Below, in pieces: positions 21,720-27,864 of a stretch of 32,550 nt of DNA (position 1 is its first letter; every line of letters starts with the position of its first letter). The DNA is from Alphaproteobacteria bacterium. Lineage in GTDB: Bacteria; Pseudomonadota; Alphaproteobacteria; Rickettsiales; SXRF01. The position numbers and the translations under genes were made by a program. The stretch spans positions 1 through 32,550 of the forward strand of contig RFOF01000006.1 in NCBI GenBank assembly GCA_009926845.1, written 5' to 3'. The notes under the pieces were generated by a model. It saw only the letters and a program-made list of their open reading frames with translations, did no database searches and was not told where the DNA came from.

Positions 21720-22109
21720 TTAAATCCCCGTCCCCGTGTAGTCGTTTCCATCTTCGATGGCCATGTACTTCACTGGGTCCACGAATTGGCGCTCAACATA
21801 TTTGAGCAGATTTTCAACGCAAGTTTCAATATTTGAGTTTTCGGTATCGACCACGACGTCAGGATTTTCCGGCTCCTCATAAGGCGCGCTGATACCCGTG
21901 AATTCAGCAATTTTTCCAGCGCGCGCCTGTTTATAAAGCCCTTTGGTGTCGCGTTTCTCGCACGCTTCCACCGACGCTTTGATATACACATCGTGGAACA
22001 TTTCCGGCGCAACTGAGCGCGCTTTGCTGCGATCTTCGCGGTAGGGCGAGATGAACGAGCTGATAACAATCATGCCGGAGCGAGCCATGAGCGCCGCCAC
22101 TTCCGCCAC
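21720..22109 (-). pseudogene. cysC: Truncated APS kinase (cysC) remnant lacking the P-loop
   Basis: These 129 codons match the C-terminal half of APS kinase: [20 protein letters not shown], then SPYREDR, KRDTKGLYKQARAGKIAEFTG and APYEEPENPDVVVDT. The N-terminal half is absent: no GLSGSGKST-type Walker A and no DGDNLR segment exist in any frame between cysN and this region. Immediately upstream in frame is LRSR after a TAG, where intact proteins read ENIRR. The first usable codon is GTG 22109, overlapping the cysN tail by 40 bases. CysN and CysC are often one fused CysNC protein, so this looks like an internal deletion of roughly 80-100 codons that also shifted the frame. The fragment cannot bind ATP and should not be an active kinase. 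The kept part is well conserved, so the loss may be recent. Confidence 0.85.
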
Positions 22110-23473
22110 GCGGCTTCGCAGGCGCTACCATGCCAATCCTCCGTTGTTTGCGATTTTGGCGCGGATGTTTTGTTCGTGCGCTGATCGACAAAACCTTCCA
22201 TGCTGATGATGCCGCCGCCTGCCACGTCATAATCCTGAATGATGACAAAACGGCCAAGGCGTGGGTTGGTGTTGAATTCATCCACCGCCACCATGCCGCG
22301 CGTGCGGAAAATAACTTCCGCAACGTTGCCGCGATCCACGCGCGGAATTTTCACCTGCTCGAGCGTGTCCGAATCGATGACGTGTTCGATGCTGCGCACT
22401 TCTGCGATAATTTCGGTGGTGTTGATCTTGATCTTGTAGCGTTTCTGCGCTTCTAGCGGCTTATGACCCAGCCAGAATATGCGCGCGCGAAACACGTTGG
22501 TGAGCTTTGGTGCGTCTTGATCGTGGCTGGCAACATGACCGCGCTCGACAAAAATTTGGTCTTCCAGCGTAATGCCGACCGACTCGCCCGCACTCACGGA
22601 TGCAGCGGATGACACCGTTGGCCAAGCCTCGATGCTCGCCACTTTGACTTTGGTGTTGGTCGGTGAAAATAGCAACGTATCACCCGCTTTCAGCGTCCCG
22701 CTTTCGATGCGGCCAACGAGAATGCGGCGCTCGTCGAACTTGTAGACATCTTGAATCGGGAAGCGAAGCGGCAGTTTTTCATCGGCCGCCGCCACCTCAA
22801 ATTTATCGAGCGATTCAACGATCGCAGGGCCTTTATACCACGGCATATTGGCCGAACTTTCGGTGATGCAGTCGCCCTCACGCGCAGAAACAGGAATGAA
22901 GAATGTCGGCTCTACGCCTACGCTTTTTAAGTATGCGCGATATTCTTTTTCAATCGCGTCAAACACCTTTTGGTCATAGCCGACCATGTCCATTTTATTG
23001 ACGACCACCGCGATCTGGCGCACACCAAGCAGATGCAGCAAATAGCCGTGGCGTTTGCTTTGTTCGCGAATGCCTTCTTTTGCATCGATCATCACGAGGG
23101 CGGCATCGGCCTGCGATGCACCGGTGATCATGTTTTTGAGGAATTCTTTGTGGCCGGGCGCGTCGATGATGACGATATCGCGCGCGCAGGTGCGCAGCCA
23201 AATCTGCGTGGTGTCAATGGTGATACCCTGGTCTCGCTCGGTCTGCAGCGCGTCCATGAGGAACGACCATTCAAACGGCATACCACGCTTGACGCAGCTT
23301 TGCTGAATCGCTTCCAGCTTGCCATCGGGCAGCGAGTGCGTGTCATGCAGCAGACGGCCAACCAGCGTCGATTTGCCGTGATCCACATGCCCCACGATCA
23401 CAATCTTGAGCTGCAGACGCACCGTGATCGGGCAAATTTCCTGCGCTTCTTTTTTTTGTATTTTAGTGCTCAT
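22070..23473 (-). CDS. cysN: Sulfate adenylyltransferase subunit 1 (CysN)
   Basis: The GTPase subunit of ATP sulfurylase, 467 aa. It is related to EF-Tu: P-loop GHVDHGKST at 28-36, DTTQIWLRT in the switch I region, DAPGHKEF for G3 and NKMDMVGYD for G4. Domains II and III follow ([34 protein letters not shown]). GTP hydrolysis drives CysD to make adenosine 5'-phosphosulfate from ATP and sulfate. The true CysN domain ends near [18 protein letters not shown] (~residue 425). The last ~40 residues (to [17 protein letters not shown]) are not CysN-like: they read through the deletion junction and then the cysC sequence out of frame. In an intact relative the frame would continue into CysC. Confidence 0.93.
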
Positions 23474-23490
23474 AACTTTTCTTCCTTTGT

Positions 23491-23549
23491 CATTCCTGCG
23501 AAAGCAGGAATCTTATTCTATGTACTGGATCCCCGCATTCGCGGGGATG
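23491..23549. repeat. Two-hairpin palindromic repeat between cysD and cysN
   Basis: Two perfect 8-bp-stem hairpins stand 17 bases apart: ATTCCTGC-GAAA-GCAGGAAT at 23492-23511 and ATCCCCGC-ATTC-GCGGGGAT at 23529-23548. The first is preceded by GTC and the second by CTGG and followed by GA. The unit matches, in stems and flanks, the copy at 25533-25610. A further small hairpin (GCCAGC-AA-GCTGGC, 23561-23574) lies beside it. It fills most of the 111-base gap between two genes that usually abut. Such units are known as interspersed REP-like repeats in proteobacteria. In the transcript it could modulate mRNA stability between cysD and cysN. Confidence 0.85.
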
Positions 23550-23584
23550 AACTCGTCTATGCCAGCAAGCTGGCAAGACATCGT

Positions 23585-24418
23585 TCACATATACCCATCA
23601 GCACGCAGACGCTCGAAGCTGCTCTCATCCTCATCCGCGCCCATTGGCCTGCCGGAGCGCTCAGACACTTTGGTGGTCTTCAGTTCTTCAATAATTTCAT
23701 CCAGCGTCACCGCGCCACTTTCGATCGGCCAAGTAATTCCTTTTTCGCCAAGGCTGCGGAAGCGCATAATCTTTCCGCCCAGATTGCGCCCTTCCAGCAC
23801 GTGGTATGGCTTAGCATAATACAGCGGCACAATCGCTATATTCTCACGCTTGATATATTCCCAGATGTCCAGCTCTGTCCAGTGCAGCAGCGGGTGAATG
23901 CGCAAACTCGTTCCGGGTGCGAAATCAGTTTTGAACTGATCCCAGAATTCTGGCGGCTGCTCTTTTACGTCCCATCCACCTTCCTGCCCACGCGGCGAAA
24001 ACACGCGCTCTTTCGCACGTGTAGCTTCTTCATCGCGGCGAATCCCCGCCACTACGCCGACAAAACCATTCTTCTCTATCACCTCTTTAAGGCCGAGGGT
24101 TTTGCGAGCGGCGACGCGCGCAGCATGCGGCAGTGTCGGGTCGGTTGCCTCAATCGGCGGGCACAAATGGCTGATGAGATTAACGCCCCATTCCTTCGCA
24201 TAGCGATCACGGAATGCATAGACCTCATCCATCTCTAACTCAGTGTCACAGTGGATGAGAGGGAATGGGATCTGCCCAAAGAATGCTTTGCGCGCGAGGT
24301 GGATCATCACGTTGGAATCCTTACCGAACGACCACAACATGGCGATCTTGTCGATGGCGTGGAATGCCTCACGGAAAATAAAAATGCTTTGCGCTTCAAG
24401 TCTGTCTAAGTGGTCCAT
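23585..24418 (-). CDS. cysD: Sulfate adenylyltransferase subunit 2 (CysD)
   Basis: The adenylyl-transferring PP-loop subunit of ATP sulfurylase, 277 aa, slightly under the usual ~300. The PP-loop motif SFGKDSNVM is at ~30-38, HCDTELEMDEVYAFRDRYA near 56, AGIRRDEEATRAKERVFSPR near 125, and WTELDIWEYI near 180. The C-terminus ERSGRPMGADEDESSFERLRADGYM is family-typical, so no truncation is evident. The ATG at 24418 shares its A with the cysH stop (TAATG), indicating coupled translation. With CysN it forms APS in the cytoplasm. Confidence 0.95.
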   Translation of the reverse strand: MDHLDRLEAQSIFIFREAFHAIDKIAMLWSFGKDSNVMIHLARKAFFGQIPFPLIHCDTELEMDEVYAFRDRYAKEWGVNLISHLCPPIEATDPTLPHAARVAARKTLGLKEVIEKNGFVGVVAGIRRDEEATRAKERVFSPRGQEGGWDVKEQPPEFWDQFKTDFAPGTSLRIHPLLHWTELDIWEYIKRENIAIVPLYYAKPYHVLEGRNLGGKIMRFRSLGEKGITWPIESGAVTLDEIIEELKTTKVSERSGRPMGADEDESSFERLRADGYM

Positions 24419-25158
24419 TATACGCTCCAGTCTACAACTTCGTCAGCACCCAGATGGATGCCGCATTCGGTTTTTTGTTCGTTCTCAATTCCTATCGTGT
24501 GCGCCCAGCGGCCTGCACGTTCGTCCTGTCCTTCGGCTACCGGCGCAGTGCAAGGCTCGCAGCCAATAGAGAGATATCCTTTTGCCACCAGCGGATGTTC
24601 CGGAAGGCCGCGTGCAGCAACTTCTTCCTTCTGGCGCTCTTTGCTCCAGCTGGCCAGCGGGTTGATGCGAAATACGTTCTTATCGTCCAGCTCGATCGCC
24701 TGCAACTCTGCGCGCTCAACCGTTTGATAGCGCTTGCGGCCAGTGATCAGCGCCTCAATGCCCAGCTCACGCACCGCGCGATCCAGCGGCTCCACTTTTC
24801 GCAGCCAGCAGCAGCGGTTTGGCTGGGTTTGCCAGAGCGTGCCAGCGGCATCGATATTGCTCAATAGCTTTTCATCTGGCTTTAGCCAGTGCACGTTTTT
24901 AAGGCCAAGTTTTTCTGTCAGCGTGCGCGCATAATCCAGCGTTTCAGGAAAATGTTTTCCCGTTTCCAGAAAAAGCACCGGCGTTTTAACATCAATTTCC
25001 GCCACCATGGAAAGCAGTAGCGCAGCGTCCGCACCGAAGGAAGAAATCAGCCCAATGCGCCCCATGAATTCATCGCGGATCATGATGCGAAGGAGCGGCA
25101 GCGCATCAAGCCCGCCATAGAACATGGAAAGACGTGTGAGCGATGTGCGGCTGGTCAT
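24418..25158 (-). CDS. cysH: Assimilatory adenylylsulfate (APS) reductase, CysH family
   Basis: A 246-aa CysH-family reductase that makes sulfite from activated sulfate with thioredoxin or glutaredoxin. The catalytic Cys is in KTECGIH (C232). It has both extra Cys pairs, CC at 116-117 (NRCCWLRKVEPL) and C200/C203 (SIGCEPCTAPV). These four ligands bind the [4Fe-4S] cluster that separates APS reductases from the cluster-free PAPS reductases of enteric bacteria. APS should therefore be used directly, which fits the broken cysC downstream. ISSFGADAALLL near 38-49 is the nucleotide-binding loop. The ATG overlaps the stop of the siroheme gene by four bases, and the stop overlaps cysD. Confidence 0.94.
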   Translation of the reverse strand: MTSRTSLTRLSMFYGGLDALPLLRIMIRDEFMGRIGLISSFGADAALLLSMVAEIDVKTPVLFLETGKHFPETLDYARTLTEKLGLKNVHWLKPDEKLLSNIDAAGTLWQTQPNRCCWLRKVEPLDRAVRELGIEALITGRKRYQTVERAELQAIELDDKNVFRINPLASWSKERQKEEVAARGLPEHPLVAKGYLSIGCEPCTAPVAEGQDERAGRWAHTIGIENEQKTECGIHLGADEVVDWSV

Positions 25159-25730
25159 GCGCTCTCCTTGCAGGCTTTGCAGTCCAGCCAGCCTTTCTGC
25201 GCGAGCATATCATCGCTAGCCGTGAGCACCTCTTTCATGCCCGCCCCACCGGCCTTTAGCGCAAGGCGTGCGCCTGCCATCTCAGCGCTGTAGCCCGCCC
25301 ACTCGGGGCCAAAGCGCCGCGCAATATAATCGCGCACACGCCGCGCCAGCGTCGGCGACGCACCACCGGTGGAAACGGCAATGAGCAAATCGCCACGGCG
25401 CACATTGGCAGTAAAATAAAAATCGCACAGGTCGATCACGTCTTCGACGTTGATGAGTTTTTTTTGTTTACGCGCTTCTGTTGCAATCATTTCCGAATCT
25501 TCTCGTGAAAGGCCAGCCACCATGACTATTTTACTGTCATCCCGCACTTGTTGCGGGATCTGGAGCCACACATTCTGAACGTCTGGATTCCCGCTTTCGC
25601 GGGAATGAGAATAGACATGCAATGCACCCGCCTCTTCCAGTTGCTTGATGCGGCGCTCAAGCAAAGGCCCACGGCCAACCAGCAGCACAGGAATTTTGGC
25701 AAGATCGAGCGCGATGGGGAACATGCTCAC
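25155..25730 (-). CDS. Siroheme-synthase-type precorrin-2 dehydrogenase (CysG N-domain/Met8-like)
   Basis: A 191-aa stand-alone version of the CysG N-terminal domain, expected to oxidise precorrin-2 to sirohydrochlorin with NAD and possibly insert iron, providing siroheme for CysI. Visible motifs are PVLLVGRGPLLERRIKQLEEAG (14-35, Rossmann glycine turn), VMVAGL (69-74), INVEDVIDLCDFYF (93-106, with the conserved Asp) and RRGDLLIAVSTGGASPTLARR (111-131). The start may be GTG 25730 or ATG 25724, with the G tract just upstream able to act as ribosome binding site. Residues ~41-66 (beginning SHSRESGNPD) come from an inserted palindromic repeat and replace the usual variable loop after the first strand; the reading frame is kept. 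The uroporphyrinogen methyltransferase domain is not in this protein. Confidence 0.88.
   Translation of the reverse strand: MSMFPIALDLAKIPVLLVGRGPLLERRIKQLEEAGALHVYSHSRESGNPDVQNVWLQIPQQVRDDSKIVMVAGLSREDSEMIATEARKQKKLINVEDVIDLCDFYFTANVRRGDLLIAVSTGGASPTLARRVRDYIARRFGPEWAGYSAEMAGARLALKAGGAGMKEVLTASDDMLAQKGWLDCKACKESA
25533..25610. repeat. In-frame palindromic repeat inside the siroheme dehydrogenase gene
   Basis: The same two-hairpin unit as at 23491-23549: stems ATCCCGCA (25539-25546) with TGCGGGAT (25552-25559), and ATTCCCGC (25587-25594) with GCGGGAAT (25599-25606). The flanks GTC before the first and CTGG before the second also match, and the spacer is longer (27 bases). Read on the minus strand it encodes HSRESGNPDVQNVWLQIPQQ and a few more residues. 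It is a multiple of three within the gene and has no stop, so the protein continues into its conserved VMVAGL segment. Confidence 0.85.
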
Positions 25731-26131
25731 CCCCCCCCCCGCGTATATCCGCCACCATTAGGATCAAATGATCTTTGTGATCGATATTGTGATGGCCTAA
25801 CTACCCAATTCGATTCATCACGGTCTGGAATTTCTTCTCCGCGCCTTCTCAACTCTGCACGGACTTCGTCACATAGCCGACGTATAGAACGTTTGACTGG
25901 CTCAGTAATGTAAGAAGCGGTTAAGGTGTATTTCTCAGCGTCTAGAAATCCATCTATCGCCGATAATTCTGCGCTTTTTTGATTACCCGAATAACGCATA
26001 TCTAATGCCAGAAAAGATTGTGCATCTGCTGCATGCTCCGTACCCGTGTCTTTATGAGCATTGGCTGAAATTGTTGCAAATGTGGGAACTGCACAAATAA
26101 TATCTTTTAACTCATGGTAGCTTATTGTCAT
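25727..26131 (-). CDS. Hypothetical protein inside the cys operon
   Basis: Unrecognised, 134 aa from ATG 26131. I prefer that start over ATG 26140 because AGGAG lies 8 bases upstream and the ATG overlaps the cysI stop (ATGA). The protein is soluble. Its first ~45 residues are mixed (TISYHELKDIICAVPTF), the middle has a helical, charged segment (TEPVKRSIRRLCDEVRAELRRRGEEIPDRDE), and the tail is Ser/Arg/Gly-rich and low-complexity, ending in the Gly codons of the G tract. It is not DUF934 or DUF2849, which often accompany cysI in alphaproteobacteria, as far as I can judge. Base composition is more AT-rich than the flanking cys genes, hinting at later arrival. Confidence 0.6.
   Translation of the reverse strand: MTISYHELKDIICAVPTFATISANAHKDTGTEHAADAQSFLALDMRYSGNQKSAELSAIDGFLDAEKYTLTASYITEPVKRSIRRLCDEVRAELRRRGEEIPDRDESNWVVRPSQYRSQRSFDPNGGGYTRGGG
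25730..25740 (-). repeat. Homopolymeric tract of 11 G (minus strand) at an overlapping gene junction
   Basis: Eleven consecutive C on the plus strand. On the coding strand the tract encodes the final Gly codons of the upstream gene, whose TGA follows at 25729-25727. It ends in the GTG that can start the siroheme gene, and it lies 5 bases before that gene's ATG (25724), in Shine-Dalgarno position. Tracts of this length are prone to slippage. Confidence 0.9.
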
Positions 26132-27864
26132 TTTACCCACTCCTGACCAGCGAGTGCGGCGAGTGCGTCCTGCTTCACCGCTTCTACACCATACCGATGG
26201 CAGAAATCACCAAAGCCTTCGCTGGCTTTGCGCTCTTTGCTCCACAGCGCGAACATGGGTTCGAGCGCGGCGGGCACTTTTTCATACGGGATTTTGTCGA
26301 AGATTTTTTCGTTCAGGCGCGTGCCTTCGAAGTCACCGCCGACATAGAGCGCGTATACTTCCGGCATGCGGCCAACGATGCCGATATCGCCAACATACGG
26401 GCGCGAGCAGCCATTGGGGCAACCGGCGATGCGAATGGCGATGTTTTCATCAATCACATTTTGGCGACGCATGACGTTTTCAATTTCGGCCACCAATGAC
26501 AGCTTGATGCGCTCAGCTTCGGCGAGCGCCTTGCCGCAGGTGGGATAGGAAACGCAGGCAATCATGTTGCGATAAACAGGCGTGACGTCTTCGCGCAGCT
26601 TGATGCCAAAGCTATGCAGCTTTTGCGTTATTTTATCTTTATGCTCCGGCAAAATGTCGCACAAAATAATATTCTGGTCAGCTGTCAGCACCAGATTCAT
26701 TTTATATTCAGCGATGATTTCGCGAAGCCCGGTGCGGATTTTTTCATCGCCGCGGTCAACAATGCGCCCACTGGAAACGGGCACGCCGAGGAACCATTTG
26801 CCGTCGCCCTGCTCGTGCCATCCCGTGTGGTCTTCCACCGCGTAGGGCGCTTGCGGGCGCGGGTCCTCCATTTTCTGGCCGAGATATTCTTCGAGCGTTG
26901 CCTTTATCCACGCCGCGCCTTTTTCTTCTACCACATATTTCAGGCGCGCATGCTGGCGATCGCCGCGATCACCGTGGTCGCGCTGCAATTTAACAACGGC
27001 TTCCACCGCAGGAATAAAAAGCTCCGGCGGCACGAACATGATCGGCGTGGCAAGGCGAGGAAAGGTTTTCGCGTTGCCGTGTTTCATGCCAAGTCCGCCG
27101 CCAACGGCGAAGTTATAGCCGATATGTTTTTGCCCCTCGAACAGCGAGATTATGGCCAGGTCATTGGTCAGCGCATCGGTGCAATTATCTTCAGGCACGG
27201 TGATGGCGATTTTGAATTTGCGCGGCATGTAGGTTTCGCCGTACAGCGGCTCCACCTCGCCTGTGGTCGAGGGTTCGGGGTTGAACGCATAATCCGCGAC
27301 CATCTCACCATCGAGCCAGATTTCGCAGTATGAGCTCGTCTTCGGCGCGCAATGTTTTGCCAGCAAATAGGCATCTTCCTGCAGCTTTGCGTGCAGCGCG
27401 TCTTTGATTGGCGCGGGGCACACCATGATGTTGCGCACCACGTCGCCGCAGCCGCCAAGCGTGGAAAGTTTCAGGCGGTTTAGCGCGGCCACCAGCGGCT
27501 TCATGCCCACTTTTTTGATGCAGTGAAACTGGAAGGTTTCGCGCGTAGTGATGCGTAAGGTTCCGTTTGCCCATTCATCAACAATGGAATCCAGCCCCAG
27601 ATATTGCTCAGCAGTGAGCCGTCCGCCCGGACATTTCATCCGCACCATGAATTCATGTTCTTTTTCGAGGCCCGCTTTTTTACGTGCCGTCGCGCTGTCG
27701 CGGTCATAACCGAAATAGCTGCCGTGGAATTTCAGCAGTTCATAGGTCGCATCGGTGACGTCGAGCGTTGACGTGTCGGCGAGCTCTGCCGCGATGTTAC
27801 CTTTCAGGTAATCGCTTTCGCGTTTGATGGTTTCCGCACCGGAAAGTTTTTTAGGTTCGTTCAT
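26128..27864 (-). CDS. cysI: Assimilatory sulfite reductase hemoprotein (CysI)
   Basis: A 578-aa siroheme-[4Fe-4S] enzyme that reduces sulfite to sulfide with six electrons. Both ferredoxin-like halves are present. The four cluster/siroheme Cys are canonical: C437-X5-C443 (ACVSYPTCGKA) and C482-X3-C486 (AGCPNGCSRPY). TTRETFQFH near 106-114 and STLGGCGDVVRNIMVCP near 134-150 carry substrate and siroheme contacts. Overall it resembles the CysI partner of NADPH-sulfite reductase rather than the shorter plant-like form. No CysJ flavoprotein follows it. The ATG at 27864 has AGGAA seven bases upstream. It is the first gene of the cys operon. Confidence 0.94.
   Translation of the reverse strand: MNEPKKLSGAETIKRESDYLKGNIAAELADTSTLDVTDATYELLKFHGSYFGYDRDSATARKKAGLEKEHEFMVRMKCPGGRLTAEQYLGLDSIVDEWANGTLRITTRETFQFHCIKKVGMKPLVAALNRLKLSTLGGCGDVVRNIMVCPAPIKDALHAKLQEDAYLLAKHCAPKTSSYCEIWLDGEMVADYAFNPEPSTTGEVEPLYGETYMPRKFKIAITVPEDNCTDALTNDLAIISLFEGQKHIGYNFAVGGGLGMKHGNAKTFPRLATPIMFVPPELFIPAVEAVVKLQRDHGDRGDRQHARLKYVVEEKGAAWIKATLEEYLGQKMEDPRPQAPYAVEDHTGWHEQGDGKWFLGVPVSSGRIVDRGDEKIRTGLREIIAEYKMNLVLTADQNIILCDILPEHKDKITQKLHSFGIKLREDVTPVYRNMIACVSYPTCGKALAEAERIKLSLVAEIENVMRRQNVIDENIAIRIAGCPNGCSRPYVGDIGIVGRMPEVYALYVGGDFEGTRLNEKIFDKIPYEKVPAALEPMFALWSKERKASEGFGDFCHRYGVEAVKQDALAALAGQEWVK

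Follow-up and report, generated by a model that had tools for sequence, protein, structure and literature searches.

The window analysed here, a stretch of 32,550 nucleotides from an alphaproteobacterial genome (G000, a MAG-like assembly of 227 contigs), carries a sulfate-assimilation cluster on its minus strand. Domain matches identify a cysN-like GTPase subunit (22070-23473), a cysD-like (23585-24418) and a cysH-like protein (24418-25158), both of the PAPS reductase family, and a cysI-like sulfite/nitrite reductase (26128-27864), itself a siroheme enzyme. The gene of interest, at 25155-25730 on the same strand, is overlapped at its 3' end by the cysH-like gene and encodes a siroheme synthase N-domain-like precorrin-2 dehydrogenase/ferrochelatase of the CysG-N/Met8/SirC type, an enzyme that makes sense in the midst of such a cluster. 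Its ORF is intact and free of internal stops; ATG 25724 is the probable start, with GTG 25730 as an alternative. The product has both domains characteristic of this family, NAD_binding_7 (Pfam match at 6.5e-13) and Sirohm_synth_M (1.2e-10), as well as its fold: CysG, SirC and Met8 were the top matches in a search of PDB structures, and the nearest similarity is to the N-terminal domain of CysG. Between cysI and the siroheme gene lies a 137-residue ORF (25727-26140, minus strand) for which Pfam and NCBIfam gave no match. A homopolymer of 11 C, read as 11 G on the coding strand, occupies 25730-25740, where the stop of this upstream ORF overlaps the siroheme start region, and could be a slippage-prone or sequencing-error site.

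A palindromic repeat translated within the siroheme gene

An earlier note, made from the letters alone, had proposed that a palindromic repeat is translated in frame within this gene, and this proved correct: a head-to-head, REP-like dimer (GTCAT...ATGAG) extends from 25536 to 25609 and, read on the minus strand, contributes about 25 amino acids, SHSRESGNPDVQNVWLQIPQQVRDD, to the stop-free ORF. The residues concerned, placed by the note at about 41-66, are 39-63 when counted from ATG 25724 and 41-65 when counted from GTG 25730. Hairpin unit A, GTCATCCCGCACTTGTTGCGGGATCTGG, occupies 25536-25563 on the plus strand and yields QIPQQVRDD on the coding strand; a spacer (25564-25582) separates it from unit B on the minus strand (25583-25609), CTCATTCCCGCGAAAGCGGGAATCCAG, which has the G of its tag changed to C and yields SHSRESGNPD. 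Both tags of this copy are thus decayed, to TGTCAT and TCTCAT. The mRNA of the dimer is predicted to fold at -33.6 kcal/mol (z -4.9), and none of 200 shuffled sequences was equally stable. The sister element expected in an intergenic gap was found between cysN and cysD, as a two-hairpin element at 23489-23552 on the plus strand.

Conserved motifs lie on both sides of the repeat, and the frame is kept, as had been supposed. In an alignment of the family, these flanking blocks align, and it is the part with the greatest variation that contains the repeat. The AF2 model (mean pLDDT 90.7) places this stretch between the second and third strands, not after the first Rossmann strand as the note had it, and not entirely in a loop: the repeat-coded segment comprises the end of the strand at 37-41, a loop and two short helices (52-55 and 58-63), and is followed by the strand at 66-70. 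In the prediction for the siroheme protein of a relative, G015, the repeat-coded stretch forms one helix, modelled at lower confidence. The position of the segment suggests that it is solvent-exposed, and the dehydrogenase is presumably made and active with the segment in place.

The repeat family in the genome

A BLAST search of the assembly with the element region returned 22 further matches to the two hairpins. Abundance was measured by pattern counts, the MAFFT alignment of dimers with variable spacers being too poor for a covariance model. The exact pattern occurs as 179 units in G000 compared to a single match for the reversed-pattern control, placing its abundance far above chance; a stricter unit pattern was found in 16 of 16 family genomes, with no control matches. 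Units start with GTCAT, often CGTCAT, and have a stem of 8 bp with a loop of 4 nt (or 8-9 bp and 3-5 nt, depending on where the stem is taken to end), followed by a CAG or TGG tail. Joined head to head, they give dimers some 54-107 nt long, which account for 28 of the 71 groups in 52 sampled G000 stretches; most of the sampled units are intergenic. In the same sample, which stands in for the whole genome in all in-gene figures, 6 of the 71 groups lie in verified genes other than the siroheme gene, a minority expected if selection purges most insertions into genes.

These further in-frame carriers encode HscA, MtaB, QueG, the C-terminal part of MnmE, ThrB and the C-terminal domain of Sua5. Counting the siroheme gene, four of these seven carriers (MtaB, QueG, MnmE and Sua5) belong to tRNA modification, in what is a small sample. 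The MnmE ORF (L247:1909-2526, minus strand) contains the dimer CHPGEGRDPRLPEIPAYAGMT in frame, and lacks a match to MnmE upstream of residue 36, which suggests a frameshift. We also considered whether the element is pre-adapted to coding through stop-avoidance, and rejected this: dimers have on average 2.1 of 6 frames open, versus 2.4 after shuffling. No tyrosine transposase of the Y1_Tnp type (PF01797) was detected in the G000 genome, which is about 92% complete; a search of viral contigs found no relative, and plasmids gave distant matches only.

The unit architecture, the dimers, the mostly intergenic placement and the lack of a Y1 transposase agree with the CGTC-REPs described by Di Nocera et al. 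2013 (PMC3733652), which have a CGTC tag, a stem of 8-9 bp, a loop of 4-5 nt and a 3-nt tail, form head-to-head dimers, predominate in Alphaproteobacteria, are mostly intergenic with some intragenic copies, and for which that account names no dedicated transposase. The segment in the siroheme gene is probably a non-autonomous, selfish, CGTC-type REP dimer, presumably spread by transposition.

Different palindromes at one loop in relatives

The relatives do not share the residues encoded by the G000 repeat, as they would if it were ordinary protein sequence; other palindromes occur at the same loop. G015 carries a perfect 27-bp dimer of another sequence (RHTDASRYPEITAQLDTDLRRYD), and G009 a single unit, again different, that is translated as CHASEGWHP; each of these two genomes also has dispersed copies that match its units. 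In G004, the DNA encoding the loop SLRGEVEEIQK aligns with a TTGCGAG-type unit, with none of 1000 shuffles scoring as high, and this unit has 11 occurrences in the G004 genome. BLAST of the loop against that genome gave no convincing match, recognition coming solely through alignment to unit consensuses; judged by its sequence, the G004 loop is a decayed copy from another family. The same consensus alignment, evaluated against shuffles, gave no palindrome signal at this loop in G013 or in the outgroups G006, G011 and G014. Two close relatives carry the depositor label Rickettsiales.

Measured between the conserved GA and IVM motifs, the interval comprises 31 residues in G000, 30 in G015, 20 in G009 and 19 in G004, compared with 18-21 in relatives that have a short loop and no detected palindrome, indicating that the palindromes partly replaced native sequence rather than being purely inserted. 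The register of the right end (ATGAC, 6 nt, ATAGT) is common to G000 and G015. The left offsets are 19 nt in G000, 22 in G015, 22 in G009 and 17 in G004, and the repeat is read in a different frame in G004.

The same pattern in HscA and MtaB

Recurrence at one site is also seen in two of the other carriers. In HscA, one loop holds repeat-coded peptides in G000, G007 and G002, and one β-hairpin does so in G000 and G015. In MtaB, repeats occupy one loop of G000, G002, G004, G007 and G013, and the element ends keep two fixed offsets from a conserved tyrosine codon region: G000, G007 and G013 share the offset 8, and G000, G002 and G004 the offset 14. The G000 copy is a CCCGAGC-type element surrounded by outer CGTCATT...AATGACG remnants, an arrangement that shows, at the level of sequence, one element sitting within what is left of another. 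At the MtaB and HscA sites that they share, the congeners G002 and G007 carry unlike families. In G015 and G009, the MtaB loop has no palindrome and includes short sequence resembling tandem repeats, AACACTCAACACTC in the case of G015, so this loop takes other simple repeats too. Repeat-coded peptides also occur at the ends of MtaB in G015, G004 and G007, for example PVIPALSGDLEQ near the N-terminus in G015 and SLRGALATKQSSS at the C-terminus in G007.

An inverted-repeat scan of the siroheme gene, HscA and MtaB recovered REP-type palindromes only in these four loops and in terminal extensions; a codon-shuffled null yields 5.5 hits per set, so the remaining weak single hits are attributable to chance. 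In a tree of the three proteins, all REP carriers at the four loops fall into one clade (UFBoot 100), a result biased toward the G000 clade in that the three genes were picked for their G000 repeat. The outgroups G006 and G008 have 51 and 56 units genome-wide, yet none at these loops.

Discussion

The observations above show a dispersed repeat family whose copies can code in frame, relatives with elements of unlike families at one and the same site, a decayed copy in G004 and a nested one in MtaB. They make it probable that the siroheme dehydrogenase contains an inherited permissive site at which CGTC-type REP families turn over while being translated in frame. An element without genes of its own probably spreads, or spread in the past, and copies landing in genes would normally be purged. 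A copy would survive where the chain between two strands accepts a short stop-free stretch, and the siroheme element may persist because the β2-β3 connection tolerates many such sequences. The surviving copy would be translated while the conserved flanking core, by prediction, folds as before; later families could insert into the resident element or replace it, and copies could decay into an ordinary-looking loop, as the one in G004 appears to have done. The siroheme site itself was most likely inherited from an ancestor of the genera g1, g3 and g5.

The main rival, which we consider doubtful though well worth weighing, is independent insertion: REPs would land genome-wide and survive in genes at only a few tolerant loops, so that the same loop is used repeatedly. 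It is strongest at the siroheme site, where the units of G015 and G009 match the current repeats of those genomes, where the differing left offsets and the G004 frame fit separate insertions as well, and where no relic was detected in G013. The unlike families of the congeners G002 and G007 at shared MtaB and HscA sites, and the simple repeats in the MtaB loop of G009 and G015, are also compatible with it. Against it stand the MtaB registers, identical across three genera, together with the nested relics, which favour inheritance plus turnover over unrelated landings, and the lack of any element at these loops in REP-rich outgroups.

It is improbable that the hairpins are kept for a function, either as mRNA folds tuning expression of the cys cluster or as a useful loop. 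The RNA hairpins predicted for G000 and G015 are strong, and REPs elsewhere have been proposed as RNA elements (PMC3733652); however, sequence, length, frame and even presence of the element differ among relatives, the G004 copy has decayed, and the dimers show no stop-avoidance. Ordinary protein sequence that is palindromic by chance, or an artefact of a fragmented assembly in which repeats are common break points, is very hard to reconcile with tens of matching copies elsewhere in the genome, parallel cases in independently assembled relatives, and flanks that are contiguous and in frame.

Palindromes translated in frame have their closest precedent in Rickettsia, and the likeness to palindromic elements in Rickettsia proteins, pointed out in the earlier note, is closer than was realized. 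RPE-4, -6 and -7 share ATGAC ends according to the R. japonica genome paper (PMC3767692), and RPE-4/6 are reported to be CGTC-type REPs (PMC3733652). Like them, the elements described here are short ATGAC-ended palindromes lying in frame in the ORFs of conserved genes, including tRNA-modification enzymes, with different groups at one site in orthologues. RPE-4/6/7 were modelled as solvent-exposed (PMC3767692), whereas exposure is deduced here from position. The host differs, being another, environmental family known largely from MAGs, and it shows both nested relics and a decayed copy. The RPE-1 elements, the in-frame coding palindromes described in conserved Rickettsia proteins (Ogata et al. 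2000, via PMC2229807), are longer, at 105-146 bp, and are reported to occur as the same group at similar orthologue sites (PMC3767692), without the turnover of families seen here. In recB, two Xanthomonas species are also on record with different REPs at roughly matching positions (PMC3733652). Siroheme dehydrogenase, HscA and MtaB are not among the CGTC-REP genes named in that article, its supplementary gene list aside. The phenomenon is known in Rickettsia, and the siroheme case is a new one in another, environmental family of Alphaproteobacteria, which carries the range of protein-coding palindromes past Rickettsia and Wolbachia.

The finding bears on a question left undecided for R. japonica, whether Rickettsia orthologues that carry unlike RPE groups at one site do so because the site is a hotspot for insertion or because they share an ancestral insertion (PMC3767692); the MtaB registers, the nested relics and the decayed siroheme copy of G004 make this question testable. 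Relatives with different palindromes at the same spot indicate that such repeats are a recurrent supply of raw material from which protein loops are made. We give about even chances to the broader proposal that certain loops are long-lived docking sites for palindromes, where, over divergence at the genus level, later families enter the remnant of an earlier element or replace it in frame, and copies decay into normal loop sequence. If this were true, the housekeeping enzymes of this lineage would go on drawing loop sequence from selfish repeats.
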